A stretch of DNA of 64,000 nucleotides, from assembly GCA_015061945.1 (NCBI GenBank), contig SUVP01000003.1:248001-312000 (forward strand). The letters run 5' to 3'. Positions 16,810 through 23,100 of the stretch are shown in pieces. The translations under genes and the position numbers were made by a program. Position 1 is the first letter of the stretch; each line of letters opens with the position of its first letter. The DNA comes from Opitutales bacterium. Lineage in GTDB: Bacteria; Verrucomicrobiota; Verrucomicrobiia; Opitutales; Intestinicryptomonadaceae. The notes below the pieces were generated by a model, which was not told the origin of the DNA, made no database searches, and saw only the letters and a list, made by a program, of their open reading frames with translations.

Positions 16810-16849
16810 AAAGTCAAAATTTTACAAGAAACTTGTTTGTAGATTACAA
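16810..16849 (+). promoter_or_regulatory. Conserved 40-base upstream element, copy 1
   Basis: This 40-base block matches the block at 19087-19126 at 32 of 40 positions without gaps. Each holds TACAA twice, 22 bases apart (16823 and 16845 here), about two helical turns, as in sites for AraC-type or similar dimeric activators. It lies about 75-115 bases before the DUF6259-like start codon. Confidence 0.55.
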
Positions 16850-16925
16850 CCAGTTTTTTTTTAATCGTTGCAATCGAATTAGCAATTTGATTAACTATTT
16901 TGCGAAAAACAAATACATTGTATAT

Positions 16926-19031
16926 ATGAAACTAAGAAATATATTATTCGTGTTGGCTATGGGGTTGTCGCTTTTGGCGTCGGCACAAACTTATAAATTA
17001 GAAAACTCAAAAGTTCGTTTCGAGATTGATTCAAAAGGTCGCCTTGTATCGCTGAAAAATCTTGTGGCAGATAGAGAATATACCAAAGGCGGAAAGGGGC
17101 TTTGGCAGATAATTTATCAGGAAGGCTCGTCGCTTGAAGAAATTATCACAAGTGAAGATGTGCCTGTTGAAGTCAAAAAAGAAGGCGAAAAACTTATTAT
17201 CAATTACGGCGGTGAGTTCCCTGTAAAAGTAGAGTGTACGCTCGATGATGATGATATTAAGTTTGTGCCTGAAATCAAAAATAACTCGAAAGATAAAATC
17301 TTGCGTGAGTTTCAATTCCCAAATATTCAAGAGTTGATTCTCACAAAAGATAGCCAGTATTACACTTCGGCAACAGGCGGACAAGCCCATGATTTGCGGT
17401 CTTATGCGATGAGTGGTTTTACTCATTACAAGTGGCAAGACGCAAAATATGTTCAAAAATATATCCTTTACCCTGGTGTTGCATCGCTAAATTGCTTTCT
17501 CATTAACGAGCCAAATACAGCACTTTATTTTGCAAATTACGACACCAACTTTAGCAAGACATTGCATATGGCAAGACTCCCAAATATCTCGAAAACTGGA
17601 GCAAAAGAATATGGTCTGCCAGCACTTTGTATGATAAAATACCCGTTTTTGAAATCGGGCGAATCAAAGAAATTTCCAGTGTATGTCGTTTCTCCGCAAA
17701 TGGGCGATTGGCACGTTGCAATGAAAAAATATCGCAAGTGGGCTGAATCAACTTGGTATAAAAAAGGACCACTCGCAGAAGATTATAGAAAATCGAATGG
17801 CTGGCAAAGAGTAATTCTCCGCCACCAACACGGAAAAATTCTATACAAATATAGTCAACTTCCCGATATCTACACAGCAGCTGAACAAGCCGACTTAAAA
17901 CATTTGCGTCTGTACGGCTGGTGGAAAGAAGGTATGGATTCAGGTAATCCACAATATTCTGAAGATTTAGAACAAGGTGGCGATGCGGAACTCCGCAAGC
18001 AAATTAAAGCAATCCAAAAACGTGGTGGTAGCGTAACTTTATACTTCAACGGACAACTTATCGATACAAGCACAGAATATTACAGTAAGATTGGTAAAGA
18101 TATTTGCGTGAAACGTTTTGAAGGTTTCCCCGACATCGAAACGTACCCATTCGGAGGAAATGGAACAGCGTTGCGAGTCTTCCCATACAAGACTTTTGCA
18201 GTTGCTTGCCCATACACAAAAGAATGGTTGGAACGAATGAAGTGGATGGCAGATAGAGCAATCAGCTTGGGCGCAGACGGAATCTATTACGACCAAATGG
18301 GACACGACGTTTATCCATGTTGCGATAAATCGCACGGACACCCCGTTCCATTTATGGATATCAACAAAGCAAAACGTGAGATGTTCCAAAAAGTTTGCGA
18401 ATATGTACGCTCGAAAAAACCAGATATGCCAATCGGGGTAGAAATCGTTTGCGAGCAAATATCGTCTCTTGCCGATTATGTACACAATTCTGCATGGGCA
18501 AATAGAATAGTAAGAATGGACAAAAATGGTAAGCCATATATGGGATTTGTCCCAATGTACCAATATGTGTATCCTGAATTTTCCACTTGCGACTTGGGCT
18601 TTTACGATGAACAAGATATTGACAAGCACTTGAACAATTCACTTATGCGTTCGTGGCGAAGCGACGTTTCTGTATTCCGTTGCAGAGGTACATTGCACGA
18701 TACTCCAAACTACAAAGCATATCTGAAAAAGATAAATGGCTTGCGTGAACGTTATCGCGACTTGATTCTCAATGGCAAATTCCGCGATACAGATTTAGCC
18801 GAATGCTCGAGCAAAAAATTGCCATATTATACATACGAAAATGGAAATAAAATGGCGATAGTATCAACCCAAGCACACTTGAAAAAGATAGATGCAGAGT
18901 TTGTCGCAAAAGGCTATAAATACGTCGAACATTCAGGCTTGGGTAACTTCAAAGTTGAAGGTGAGGGCGACACTGTGAAAACATCGATTGGCGAACGCAG
19001 TGTTGTTGTGATACTTTTTGAAAAGAAATAA
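16926..19031 (+). CDS. Exported DUF6259-like putative glycoside hydrolase, copy 1
   Basis: About 701 residues. The signal peptide is MKLRNILFVLAMGLSLLASAQ. An N-terminal beta-sandwich of about 280 residues (YKLENSKVRFEIDSKGRLVSLKN) is followed by a barrel-like catalytic region. The block GADGIYYDQMGHD holds Asp451 and Asp456, reminiscent of the catalytic Asp region of clan GH-D and related alpha-glycosidases. These families attack alpha-linked sugars, but the substrate is unknown. It is a close tandem paralogue of the gene at 19211, with long identical stretches such as RKWA and the segment around LRLYGWWKEGMD. I chose the ATG at 16926, which begins the signal peptide, over an upstream frame extension. 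Confidence 0.72.
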   Translation: MKLRNILFVLAMGLSLLASAQTYKLENSKVRFEIDSKGRLVSLKNLVADREYTKGGKGLWQIIYQEGSSLEEIITSEDVPVEVKKEGEKLIINYGGEFPVKVECTLDDDDIKFVPEIKNNSKDKILREFQFPNIQELILTKDSQYYTSATGGQAHDLRSYAMSGFTHYKWQDAKYVQKYILYPGVASLNCFLINEPNTALYFANYDTNFSKTLHMARLPNISKTGAKEYGLPALCMIKYPFLKSGESKKFPVYVVSPQMGDWHVAMKKYRKWAESTWYKKGPLAEDYRKSNGWQRVILRHQHGKILYKYSQLPDIYTAAEQADLKHLRLYGWWKEGMDSGNPQYSEDLEQGGDAELRKQIKAIQKRGGSVTLYFNGQLIDTSTEYYSKIGKDICVKRFEGFPDIETYPFGGNGTALRVFPYKTFAVACPYTKEWLERMKWMADRAISLGADGIYYDQMGHDVYPCCDKSHGHPVPFMDINKAKREMFQKVCEYVRSKKPDMPIGVEIVCEQISSLADYVHNSAWANRIVRMDKNGKPYMGFVPMYQYVYPEFSTCDLGFYDEQDIDKHLNNSLMRSWRSDVSVFRCRGTLHDTPNYKAYLKKINGLRERYRDLILNGKFRDTDLAECSSKKLPYYTYENGNKMAIVSTQAHLKKIDAEFVAKGYKYVEHSGLGNFKVEGEGDTVKTSIGERSVVVILFEKK

Positions 19032-19053
19032 AATATCAAATTTGCACTTCAAG

Positions 19054-19081
19054 GTCTGTGAGATTACTCACAGACTTTTTT
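19054..19081 (+). terminator. Intrinsic terminator between the DUF6259-like paralogues
   Basis: GTCTGTGAG and CTCACAGAC form a perfect 9-bp stem around ATTA, followed by T6. It separates the two paralogues into independent transcripts. Confidence 0.9.
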
Positions 19082-19086
19082 GTTAT

Positions 19087-19126
19087 AAAGTCAACATAGT
19101 ACAAGAAACATTTATATAGAGTACAA
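19087..19126 (+). promoter_or_regulatory. Conserved 40-base upstream element, copy 2
   Basis: Second copy of the block at 16810-16849. TACAA occurs at 19100 and 19122, the same 22-base spacing. It follows the terminator of the first paralogue directly and lies about 85-125 bases before the second start codon. Confidence 0.55.
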
Positions 19127-19210
19127 AAATAATTCATTATATTGTTGCATAAACAGAAGGATTTTAATTATCCTCTCATTCTCTTATAACTTATACAAAT
19201 TATCAGAAAT

Positions 19211-21316
19211 ATGAAAATGGGAAAATTACTAATAACACTCGGTTTGTTTGTCGCATCGGTATCTTTTGCCGAAACATACAAACTTGAAAATTCAAAAATA
19301 CGTTTTGAAATTGACGACAAGGGGAGTGTCGTATCTTTGAAAAATTTTGAAACAAACAGAGAATATGCAGGCGGAGGCGGTCTTTGGCGAATCATCTATC
19401 AAGACGGACTTTCTCTCGAAGAAAAGCTTGAGAGTGAAGACGTACCAGTTGATGTCAAAAAAGAAGGCGAAAAGTTGATTATCAACTATGGCGGAGAATT
19501 CCCTGTAAAAGTAGAATGTACTCTCGACGGCGATGATGTTCGCTTTGTGCCAACTCTTAAGAACAACTCGAAAGATAAAATCTTACGAGAGTTTCAATTC
19601 CCACTCATCAAGAATATTCCAAATATTGCTGATTGCGAGTTTATGACAACTCACTCAGGTGGCGAACGTTACAATAGCGTACATGGATATATCCGTGGTG
19701 GCTACACATCGTATATGGGGCAAGATAACAAGGAAGTTCAACGTTATATTCTTTATCCAGGAAGAGCCGCTATGAATTGCTTTCTTGTTAACGAACCAAA
19801 CTCGGCTCTCTACTTTGCACACTACGATTCAAACTTTGGCAAAACATTGCATATTGGTCGCTTGCCGAATATATCAAAAGTAGGTTTGCATGAATTTGGT
19901 TTACCAACGTTGGGTATGGTAAGATACCTCTATTTGAAAGAAGGAGAATCAAAGACTCTCCCAGTGTTTGTCGTTTCACCACAAACTGGCGATTGGCGTA
20001 CATCGATGAAAAAATATCGCAAGTGGGCTGATTCATCGTGGTATCAAAAACGTCCAGCAACAAAAGATTTCAAAGAATCGAATGGTTGGCAACGTGTAAT
20101 TTTCCGTCACCAATATGGAAAACTTCTTTGGGGTTATGATAAACTTCCAGAAATTTATACATCGGCAGAAGAAGCAGGCTTGCATACACTCCGTCTCTAC
20201 GGATGGTGGAAAGAAGGTATGGACGCTGGCAACCCTCACTATTCGGAAGATGATACACAAGGTGGCGATGCAGAACTTCGCAAACAAATTAAGGCAATCC
20301 AAAAGCGTGGTGGTAAAGTAAATCTTTACTTCAATGGTCAGCTTATCGATACCGATACTGAATTCTATAAGACAATCGGTAAAGATATTTGCATTAAGCG
20401 TATGGACGGTACTCCACACCTCGAACGCTATCCTTTCGGTGGCGACGGCACAGCACTTCGTGTGTTCGGAAACAAGACTTTTGGCGTAGCTTGCCCATAC
20501 ACAAAAGAATGGCTCAAAAAACTTATTGAAATCGCAGACAGAGCAATCAGCTTGGGGGCAGACGGAATCTATTACGACCAAATGGGCCACGATATTCTCC
20601 CATGTGCAGACCCAACACACGGACACCCTGTTCCATATATGGAAATCAACCGTTGCAAACACGAAATGTTCAAGAAAGTTTGTGAATATATCCGTGCAAA
20701 GAAACCTGGTATGACTATCGGTGTTGAATGGGTTTGCGACCCAATCGCTCCATTGGTTGACTATGTTCACAATTGTCTTTTTGCAACAAATTATGTCGGC
20801 AAAGATAAGTTTGGTAAGCCGTTGACTGCTTATGCTCCATTGTATCAATACGCATTCCCAGAATACGCAACATGCGATGCTGGTTTGTATGACGACCGCG
20901 ATATTATTCGTCGTGTAAATATCACACTTCTTCGTTCATGGCGAAGCGACGTTTCTATCTTCCGTTGCCGTGAAACAATCAACGCAACACCAGTTTATAA
21001 GGCATATTTGAAAGAAGCAAATAAGCTCCGCGATCGTTTCCGCGACTTGATTCTCAACGGAAAATTCCGTGATATCGACTTGGCAAAATGCACAAACCCA
21101 CAAATAGATTACTACACATACGAAAATGGAAATCGTATGGCAGTTATCACAACACAAGCACACTTGGATATGGCAAAGGCAAACTTTATTGCCGACGGCT
21201 ACAAGTATGTTGAACATGGTGGTTTGGGCGATTACACTGTTGAAGTCGATGGCGATGTCGTGAAAACTTCGATGAAGAAGAATGCACTCATTGTGATTGT
21301 CTTCGAGAAGAAATAA
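19211..21316 (+). CDS. Exported DUF6259-like putative glycoside hydrolase, copy 2
   Basis: The 701-residue paralogue of the preceding gene is collinear over its whole length. It has its own signal peptide (MKMGKLLITLGLFVASVSFAE). GADGIYYDQMGHD again falls at residues 449-461 with Asp451 and Asp456, so there are almost no net indels before it. Differences cluster in substrate-side regions such as the segment after GVEWVCDPIAPL and the MDGTPHLERYPFGGDG loop. The two probably act on related alpha-glycosides outside the cytoplasm. It has its own upstream element and terminator. A ROK sugar kinase follows and may phosphorylate the released sugar. Confidence 0.72.
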   Translation: MKMGKLLITLGLFVASVSFAETYKLENSKIRFEIDDKGSVVSLKNFETNREYAGGGGLWRIIYQDGLSLEEKLESEDVPVDVKKEGEKLIINYGGEFPVKVECTLDGDDVRFVPTLKNNSKDKILREFQFPLIKNIPNIADCEFMTTHSGGERYNSVHGYIRGGYTSYMGQDNKEVQRYILYPGRAAMNCFLVNEPNSALYFAHYDSNFGKTLHIGRLPNISKVGLHEFGLPTLGMVRYLYLKEGESKTLPVFVVSPQTGDWRTSMKKYRKWADSSWYQKRPATKDFKESNGWQRVIFRHQYGKLLWGYDKLPEIYTSAEEAGLHTLRLYGWWKEGMDAGNPHYSEDDTQGGDAELRKQIKAIQKRGGKVNLYFNGQLIDTDTEFYKTIGKDICIKRMDGTPHLERYPFGGDGTALRVFGNKTFGVACPYTKEWLKKLIEIADRAISLGADGIYYDQMGHDILPCADPTHGHPVPYMEINRCKHEMFKKVCEYIRAKKPGMTIGVEWVCDPIAPLVDYVHNCLFATNYVGKDKFGKPLTAYAPLYQYAFPEYATCDAGLYDDRDIIRRVNITLLRSWRSDVSIFRCRETINATPVYKAYLKEANKLRDRFRDLILNGKFRDIDLAKCTNPQIDYYTYENGNRMAVITTQAHLDMAKANFIADGYKYVEHGGLGDYTVEVDGDVVKTSMKKNALIVIVFEKK

Positions 21317-21366: not shown

Positions 21367-21456
21367 TTTGCAAATTTTTGAAATTTTAAATTGTGATTTT
21401 TTCAAAAATATTCAAACTAATGTTCTATAACTTATAACTAACTAAAATTATTTATT

Positions 21457-22410
21457 ATGAAATACGCAATCGGAGTAGATATTGGTGGAACAGGCACAAA
21501 ACTCGGCGTTGTCGACGAAAAGGGCAACGTACTAAAACATCACGAATTTAAAACGACAGATTATAAGGATTTTCCTACATACGTCGACGGTCTTGTCGAA
21601 GCAATTACAATGCTTACATCAAGCACAGAAGGGGAATGTCAAGGCGTTGGTATTGGGGCTCCGAATGGAAATTATTATTCTGGTAGAATCGAATTTGCTC
21701 CAAATCTCCCATTTGGTGATGGTGCACCAATCGTCGACGCATTGAAAGAAAAGCTCGGCTATAATATCGTATGCTTGAGCAATGACGCAAACGCTGCAGC
21801 AATCGGCGAAAAAATCTATGGTGGCGGACGCAACCTCAATCACTTTATTCTTATCACTCTCGGAACAGGTTTGGGTTCGGGTATTATTTGCGACGGCAAA
21901 ATTGTTCTCGGTGAAGACGGCAACGCTGGCGAACTCGGACACGTTTGTGCAGTGCCAAACGGACGCATTTGTGGTTGCGGAAAGCGTGGTTGCCTTGAAG
22001 CATACGCATCGGCAACAGGTATCAAACGTACATTTATGGAAATGGTCGCAAAATATAATGGCGACTCTATTATAGCAAATACGCCTTGGGATAAGCTCGA
22101 CGCACGTGTTGTGGAAGACGCTGCAAAACAAGGCGACAAGGCGGCAATCGAAACATATAATGTAACAGGTGCGATATTGGGTAGATGCTTGGCAGACTTT
22201 GTACACTTTTCTCGCCCATCAGCGATATTCCTTTTTGGAGGACCAGTTAAGAGTGGCGAGATGATTCTCGAGCCGACACGCATAGCAATGGAAAAAAATC
22301 TGATGCCAGTTTTCAAAGGAAAAATCAGAGTATTAGCATCGGAACTTCCACTTGGCGATGCCGCAATTTTGGGAGCATCGGCAATGGTCTGGGACGCAAT
22401 CGCAAAATAA
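21457..22410 (+). CDS. ROK-family sugar kinase (glucokinase-like)
   Basis: The 317-residue protein opens with the phosphate-binding loop IGVDIGGTGTKLGVVD. It has the sugar-binding LSNDANAAAIGE, the ATP loop LGTGLGSG, and the ROK zinc motif CGCGKRGCLE (Cys172, 174 and 179, with the conserved upstream GELGHVCAVP His). No N-terminal helix-turn-helix is present, so it is a kinase and not a ROK repressor. It phosphorylates a hexose, probably glucose or a derivative, with ATP in the cytoplasm. It follows the two DUF6259-like enzymes but has a terminator before it, so it is a separate unit. Confidence 0.92.
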   Translation: MKYAIGVDIGGTGTKLGVVDEKGNVLKHHEFKTTDYKDFPTYVDGLVEAITMLTSSTEGECQGVGIGAPNGNYYSGRIEFAPNLPFGDGAPIVDALKEKLGYNIVCLSNDANAAAIGEKIYGGGRNLNHFILITLGTGLGSGIICDGKIVLGEDGNAGELGHVCAVPNGRICGCGKRGCLEAYASATGIKRTFMEMVAKYNGDSIIANTPWDKLDARVVEDAAKQGDKAAIETYNVTGAILGRCLADFVHFSRPSAIFLFGGPVKSGEMILEPTRIAMEKNLMPVFKGKIRVLASELPLGDAAILGASAMVWDAIAK

Positions 22411-22515: not shown

Positions 22516-23100
22516 TTATTTCTTTGCATAGATAAAAGCAAATGGATATGCGACAACTTTCCCTGATTGCTCTCCGTCCGTTTTTATGACGATAGTTATA
22601 TATTCTTCTGCTTTTTTTGTAAATTTGAGCTTGTATCTTAAAATAACGTATTGGCTATCGGGCATCGATGGCATTGTTTCACTTATCGATTGCGATACTA
22701 ATTCTCTTGATATAAAATCGCCATAATTTTTGTATTTATCTATTTCAAATTGTATTTTATATTTAGATACTTTGTAATAATATTTTTTTCTGCCGAAAAT
22801 ACTTTTTTCTCTTTTCTTGTATGACATCATTTCAGCAGATTTGACATTTTTTCGTTCCACAAAACCGAGGAATCTTTCGGCGACAGAAATTGCCTTTGAT
22901 ATTGAGTTGTTCTCAGAAGTTTTACTCGTAACTTCTATGTTTTGTAGTGGCGATTTTTTGAGAACATTTACAGGTTTGGGAAGTGTTGCCTTGGGAAGCG
23001 ATGCTTGAGGCATTGATACTTGTGGAATACTCGACGAGTTTTGTGCAATACTACTTATCGAGATAATTACAATGATAATTACAGAAAAATATTTTTTCAT
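22516..23100 (-). CDS. Exported protein of unknown function
   Basis: The 194-residue protein has a signal peptide (MKKYFSVIIIVIISISSIAQ). A low-complexity proline and serine linker follows (PQVSMPQASLPKATLPKP). A folded part runs from about residue 65 (SISKAISVAERFLGFVERKNVKSAEMM) to a beta-rich end (YVILRYKLKFTKKAEEYITIVIK). The pattern of a helix, then a lysine-rich loop, then paired strands vaguely resembles DUF4019-type periplasmic proteins, but I cannot support that assignment. It is monocistronic, divergent from the fatty-acid-type operon across 164 bases. Confidence 0.7.
   Translation of the reverse strand: MKKYFSVIIIVIISISSIAQNSSSIPQVSMPQASLPKATLPKPVNVLKKSPLQNIEVTSKTSENNSISKAISVAERFLGFVERKNVKSAEMMSYKKREKSIFGRKKYYYKVSKYKIQFEIDKYKNYGDFISRELVSQSISETMPSMPDSQYVILRYKLKFTKKAEEYITIVIKTDGEQSGKVVAYPFAFIYAKK

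Follow-up and report, generated by a model that had tools for sequence, protein, structure and literature searches.

A shared element upstream of two DUF6259 genes as a candidate AraC-type operator in a family of uncultured Opitutales

In this study, which was based on a stretch of 64,000 nucleotides from an Opitutales bacterium (hereafter, the window) and on comparisons with related genomes, we asked why the spacers ahead of two adjacent DUF6259 genes share a 40-base block. The initial annotation had described this resemblance, the poorly matching surroundings and a TACAA that is repeated at a 22-base spacing in both blocks, and all of these observations held. The blocks are identical at 32 of the 40 positions without gaps, while in 3000 dinucleotide-shuffled spacer pairs no gapless 40-mer exceeded 28 identities. 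Extending the diagonal into the flanks gives 32/76 identical positions downstream and 4/10 upstream. The block is better conserved than its surroundings, given that the spacer below it matches at the former rate and the fourfold-degenerate sites of the two genes at 93/175. A match of this size is noteworthy for a spacer only, since 390 of the 2060 40-base segments in the aligned coding sequences of the two genes (W1 and W2) also reach 32/40. The TACAA pair alone is likewise weak evidence because a third exact TACAA-N17-TACAA lies within the window (22750-22776, minus strand). When up to three mismatches were permitted, the long block pattern was found in its own genome (G000) only twice, as blocks 1 and 2.

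The features of the locus are collected in Table 1. Both genes, which had been called DUF6259-like, scored well over the cutoff of the family, and the terminator that had been placed ahead of the second block was recovered. The N-terminus of W1 appeared signal-peptide-like by eye. For DUF6259, a sequence search of the PDB gave a best E-value of 0.14, and the AlphaFold model had a mean pLDDT of 43.8. An Rfam scan of the window returned nothing at the gathering score. The lower half of block 1 (16829-16862, plus strand) contains a weak hairpin that is followed by nine T and that may double as the terminator of the SpoU gene; its fold was no better than chance (z -0.87).

Table 1. Coordinates of the genes and of the candidate regulatory features; positions are those of the window.
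Feature	Position	Strand	Basis
Operator 1 (candidate), full site and half-site	16810..16849	-	32/40 with operator 2
Operator 1 core, TTGTAAAATTTTGACTTT on the minus strand	16810..16827	-	Exact match to TTGNANNATNTTGACTTT; 25.8 bits, matrix of 44 other sites
Operator 1 second half-site (candidate), TTGTA	16845..16849	-	22 bp from the first TTGTA; sequence, TTG at -21/-22 statistics
Candidate -35 box TTGCAA, weak	16868..16873	+	18 bp below operator 1
DUF6259 gene 1 (W1)	16926..19031	+	PF19773, 111.4 bits, gathering cutoff 28.7
Intrinsic terminator of gene 1	19051..19078	+	12-pair stem, then T run; -16.8 kcal/mol, z -5.73
Operator 2 (candidate), whole	19087..19126	-	32/40 with operator 1
Operator 2 core, TTGTACTATGTTGACTTT on the minus strand	19087..19104	-	Exact match; 24.3 bits
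Operator 2 second half-site (candidate), TTGTA	19122..19126	-	Sequence, TTG at -21/-22 statistics
Candidate promoter TTGCAT-N18-TATCCT, weak	19145..19174	+	18 bp below operator 2
DUF6259 gene 2 (W2)	19211..21316	+	PF19773, 116.8 bits, gathering cutoff 28.7

W1 and W2 are tandem paralogs (65% identical), and the blocks might therefore be nothing but a functionless residue of the duplication, for which the initial annotation had named the absence of the element from orthologous loci as the telling sign. The sole close ortholog that was found, a DUF6259 gene that is 56% identical and has different neighbours in a related uncultured Opitutales MAG (G004), has the element, while the upstream regions of 10 more distant DUF6259 genes lack it. 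A tree of 13 DUF6259 proteins resolved the ortholog (O) as (O,(W1,W2)) with a support of 100/100, and it therefore diverged before W1 and W2 were duplicated. At fourfold sites, its identity is down to 31% with W1 and 24% with W2, yet its spacer reads AAAGTCAAAAT, TACAA, AAAC, TACAA and then TTGACA-N18-TATAAC. The two TACAA words are 18 bp apart in the ortholog compared to 22 bp in W1 and W2, and this spacing, as well as the third exact pair in the window, led us to reject TACAA-N17-TACAA alone as the element. Aligning the ortholog on its TTGACTTT box places the second TTGTA 21 bp away, and the apparent clash between 18 and 22 bp thus disappears; in MAFFT alignments of the three spacers, the ortholog is misaligned beyond AAAGTCAAAAT.

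The pattern GTCAAN{5,8}TACAAN{13,17}TACAA had four matches in 14 genomes of the genus and none in a reversed control. Three of them are the spacers of W1, W2 and the ortholog, and the fourth lies over a reading frame of 271 aa that is nitrilase-like by eye. With the 44-site matrix, the ortholog site, which misses two of the 14 fixed positions, scored 14.8 bits (for W1 and W2, see Table 1), and the ten other DUF6259 regions scored at most 7.6. Of 1000 shuffled versions of its spacer, 4 reached the score of the ortholog. Since five places in 220 kb of the window's own genome score higher, the ortholog site is credible mainly by its position. A profile that was built from W1 and W2 only did not return it genome-wide among the matches to E 5; when confined to 11 DUF6259 loci, the same profile ranked it as the best of 13 matches (E 0.15).

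Read on the minus strand, the core of the element is TTGnAnnATnTTGACTTT. The TACAA of the initial annotation is part of this core but forms only one end of it, and the core itself lies on the minus strand. Searching the genus with a profile of both blocks (to E 5) yielded 10 additional weak matches, eight of which were inspected; five lay between genes and three within reading frames. The intergenic ones, together with an earlier match (L002), carry TTGnAnnATnTTGACTTT with at most one mismatch on the strand opposite to that of W1 and W2, and those with a gene below them carry it on the strand of that gene. The motif search across the genome and its relatives that had been proposed initially found TTGnAnnATnTTGACTTT, with at most one mismatch, 20 times in the window's own genome compared to 4 for the reversed-pattern control, and 55 compared to 12 times in the other 13 genomes of the genus, where three of the 55 had helped to suggest the motif. 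Within the window, W1 and W2 are the sole matches with up to two mismatches, and both are exact, with 2.1 matches expected by chance. All 75 matches of the 14 genomes were placed on genes using an ORF rule. In the eight genomes that bear the candidate regulator described below, 46 of 63 were intergenic (16 of 17 among the exact ones), compared to 3 of 12 in the six genomes without it; the site of the regulator gene itself in G008 was scored as coding owing to a reverse-strand open frame. With the core recurring before unrelated genes and the element retained in an ortholog that predates the duplication, it is scarcely credible that the blocks are a mere residue. A site at L046:6914 (G000:C1), which reads TATAACTATTTTGACTTT (19.5 bits) with TTGAACTATATTTG 22 bp upstream of it and precedes a gene for a secreted repeat-like protein, is likely a further tandem site that the one-mismatch pattern missed.

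A protein whose occurrence accompanies that of the motif is encoded outside the window. It is an AraC-family protein of 298 aa (G000:C12:63233-64126, hereafter the C12 protein) with a C-terminal HTH_18 domain (60.3 bits, curated cutoff 33.6) and an N-terminal AraC_binding domain (PF02311) that is barely over the cutoff (22.1 compared to 21.1 bits). Its best NCBIfam relative is ChbR (NF007633, residues 13-276), although at 68.6 bits it is below the cutoff of 264 for a ChbR equivalog. Among 88 genomes, nine others have an ortholog with an identity of 63-81%, and the next protein by E-value is 29% identical. In the ten regulator genomes, the motif with at most one mismatch occurs 79 times compared to 9 in the control; in the other 78 genomes, the figures are 112 and 82. 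The 16 matches of G014 and G016 enter these counts but not the placement on genes. Two genomes of another genus, which had no part in deriving the motif, gave 9 compared to 1 and 7 compared to 1. The association between motif and regulator had a Mann-Whitney p of 2.4e-7 for the 88 genomes and 1.8e-4 for the 19 genomes of the family, values in which the shared history of related genomes is counted. Moreover, six of the ten genomes have a site immediately ahead of the gene for the regulator itself (in the five measured cases, 158-172 bp upstream of the conserved VVHGK codons), which agrees well with the AraC-type control that had been suggested at the outset. In G002 and G013, no site within one mismatch precedes the regulator gene, the best having three mismatches, and in G014 and G016 there is none within one mismatch on the contig of that gene. 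Judging from these comparisons of sequences, each block would be an operator of an AraC/XylS-family regulator, most likely of the C12 protein, and we put the probability of this reading at roughly 0.7.

It is also conceivable that the regulon is the same but that its binder is another protein, an AraC paralog or a different direct-repeat binder such as an OmpR-type response regulator, whose occurrence merely tracks that of the C12 protein. The window's own genome encodes seven AraC-type (HTH_18) proteins, and G001, which has no C12 ortholog, has three matches compared to none in the control, which counts against the C12 protein; in G012, a second AraC-type gene has an exact site 62 bp before it. 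However, the C12 protein and the one encoded at C2:237926 are the only two of the seven with an ortholog of at least 50% identity in G004, the genome that carries the element of the ortholog. The C2:237926 protein was rejected as the regulator; at this identity it is shared with G004 and G008 only and is thus distributed more narrowly than the motif, whose excess extends over eight genomes of the genus, and no motif match precedes its gene. Given also that six C12 orthologs have the site before their own gene, we regard a different binder as unlikely.

Three further observations concern these AraC-type genes and G001. In G001, an intergenic site with one mismatch (L136, G001:C1:261111-261128, minus strand), one of the three intergenic matches in genus genomes without the regulator, is followed 25 bp below by TTGACA and then by a gene whose start is Tat-signal-like by eye; in this genome, the same sites may be used by a diverged regulator. 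The exact site in G012 (L199, G012:C86:18918-18935, minus strand) makes a cross-control between AraC proteins possible. The C2:237926 gene (L048 near 9210, G000:C2:237 kb) and its G008 ortholog (L084) share an upstream motif of their own, AGGTATnTnGGnAAAACAG with an 18-bp repeat of AGnTAT, which is probably the operator of the C2:237926 protein itself.

The architecture of the sites was analysed using two properties that had not been used in finding them, namely, the half-site spacing and a -35-like TTGA. Of the 46 intergenic sites, 18 have a second TTG 21 or 22 bp ahead of them (9 at each distance, compared to an average of 1.3 per offset); without the seed sites, the count is 13 of 37 (mean of 0.84 at other offsets). 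The strict word is present at W1 and W2 and absent from the other 28 of the 46 sites. The two-turn direct repeat of the AraC type that the initial annotation had proposed is supported by this half-site and by the excess of the motif alongside one AraC ortholog. Among the sites that point in the same direction as their gene, 15 of 35 have TTG 24 or 25 bp after the motif and 13 of 35 have TTGA there, the latter in 11 of 29 without the seed sites (mean of 0.24 per other offset). In those 15 sites, an A at +23 and a T at +27 were each found in 11, which suggests a -10 box. An EM promoter model that reached two spacings gives only a hint. In the window's own genome, glmS is preceded by two sites in tandem at a distance of 22 bp, and the upper one matches at 12 of 14 positions.

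At W1, W2 and the ortholog, the site points against the direction of its gene. Of 23 sites with this orientation, which include those of W1 and W2, eight have a TTG at 39 (3) or 40 (5) bp, against which it counts that the offsets 5, 37 and 47 also have three TTG each. W1 and W2 have only weak -35-like boxes 18 bp below the half-site, and the offset of the W1 box is the same as that of the W2 box and of TTGACA in the ortholog. This shared offset arose in 4 of 2000 full shuffles and in 98 of 2000 in which the ortholog was kept and W1 and W2 were shuffled; a promoter at these positions of W1 and W2 is thus only weakly indicated by the sequence. A reverse-strand sigma-70 promoter starting from TTGACT was rejected, as neither W1 nor W2 nor the ortholog has a -10 above 3/6 at a spacing of 15-19 bp.

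Another alternative is that the block is itself the core promoter, in which case an A-rich stretch would lie upstream, the first TACA would be covered by the -35 and the second TACAA would hold the -10. The best consensus promoter in the W1 spacer is indeed TTTACA-N18-TACAAC (9/12), and TTCATA-N16-TACAAT of the ortholog also scores 9, but W2 has no such match among its best and the best promoter of the ortholog, TTGACA-N18-TATAAC, lies further down. Moreover, the regions upstream of genes show no enrichment of TACAAC, TACAAA or TACAAT, the clear promoters of this genome read CTTGAC with A and T at a -10-like spacing, and the motif recurs in both orientations, all of which makes a core promoter very unlikely.

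For the operator reading, the following mechanism can be proposed. One monomer of the regulator would contact the TTG and TTGAC boxes of TTGnAnnATnTTGACTTT, which are 10 bp apart on the minus strand, and a second monomer would contact the partial copy (TTGTA) 21-22 bp away. As the pair lies 18 bp above the weak -35-like box, the bound regulator could recruit the polymerase to each DUF6259 gene, and the terminator would prevent read-through from gene 1 into gene 2. In this genome and its relatives, the same regulator would also sit upstream of its own gene and of genes for glycans and amino sugars. From the motif, its conservation, the spacings of the half-site and of the -35-like box, the co-occurrence with the regulator and the gene contexts, all of which were computed, we infer the identity of the binding protein, its dimer geometry, the activation and an amino sugar as the inducer. 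The comparative evidence points to what the initial annotation had surmised, a separate control of both genes by the same factor.

The genes beside the sites were characterised using a Pfam scan of 30 of the 58 neighbours, and the list is therefore partial. Xylose-isomerase-like TIM barrels (6 sites in 5 genomes) and Gfo/Idh/MocA proteins (5 sites in 4 genomes) recurred, as did glmS, which was found at two sites and, recognised by its N-terminus only, at a third; in two genomes, the distance from the glmS site to the start codon is 33-35 bp. BadF-like kinases were found at two sites, below the cutoff. Single sites were accompanied by N-acetylmuramic acid 6-phosphate etherase (murQ), GH123, a GH42-like protein and a DUF4838/GH67-N protein. 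Other neighbours had no evident link to sugars (RuvX, an alanine dehydrogenase/PNT protein, an SBF-like transporter and DUF3485), and 6 of the 30 scanned had no Pfam match. The amino-sugar label for the regulon is consequently an impression from the majority rather than a proof. A NagB-like gene (by eye) on G006:C103 was rejected as a target because the site falls in the preceding reading frame. In the window, the third-best site (21368-21385, plus strand; 15.4 bits with the 44-site matrix, four mismatches to the core) lies in the spacer between W2 and a ROK sugar-kinase-like gene at 21457 and may be a chance match.

With these results, the resemblance of two copies becomes a proposed regulon that comprises a candidate regulator, its operator and a list of targets in a family of uncultured Verrucomicrobiota. 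For Opitutales, Opitutaceae, Verrucomicrobia and Akkermansia, no study of such a regulon was found in those parts of the open-licence literature that were accessible, and the word DUF6259 was found in no paper of that literature. The control that DUF6259 would share with murQ, glmS, GH123 and glycoside-processing families is the first functional context found for it, and membership in the regulon would be a first hint at the role of two unknown secreted proteins, W1 and W2. More tentatively, a ChbR-like AraC protein might be the master switch of the use of host glycans and amino sugars in this Opitutales family and use one operator in both orientations; the DUF6259 proteins of this clade might then be secreted enzymes that act on glycans with GlcNAc or GalNAc, and the protein that activates the catabolic genes might also be the repressor of glmS.

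Three known systems invite comparison. In AraC at araI1-I2 and in other AraC/XylS activators, the sites are two-turn direct repeats, and the sites described here are similar in that their direct half-sites are separated by 21 or 22 bp and, in some of the same-direction sites, are followed by a -35-like box. They differ in their sequence, in the position of that box, which is 24-25 bp below, and in occurring in both orientations. The amino-sugar regulon of E. coli is controlled by NagC, a ROK repressor, and has a similar metabolic scope, glmS included, whereas the protein that is linked to the sites here is of the AraC type. For the ROK protein beside W2, the match to ROK spans residues 5-311 of 317, and the NagC score is 120.9, with a cutoff of 650. 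ChbR, which belongs to the AraC family and regulates the chitobiose (chb) operon of E. coli, is the best NCBIfam match of the C12 protein over nearly its full length, and amino-sugar genes lie beside the sites. In contrast to ChbR, the C12 protein scores far under the cutoff of that family, and its candidate sites are found at many loci, among them murQ, glmS and genes for secreted glycan enzymes, rather than at one operon.
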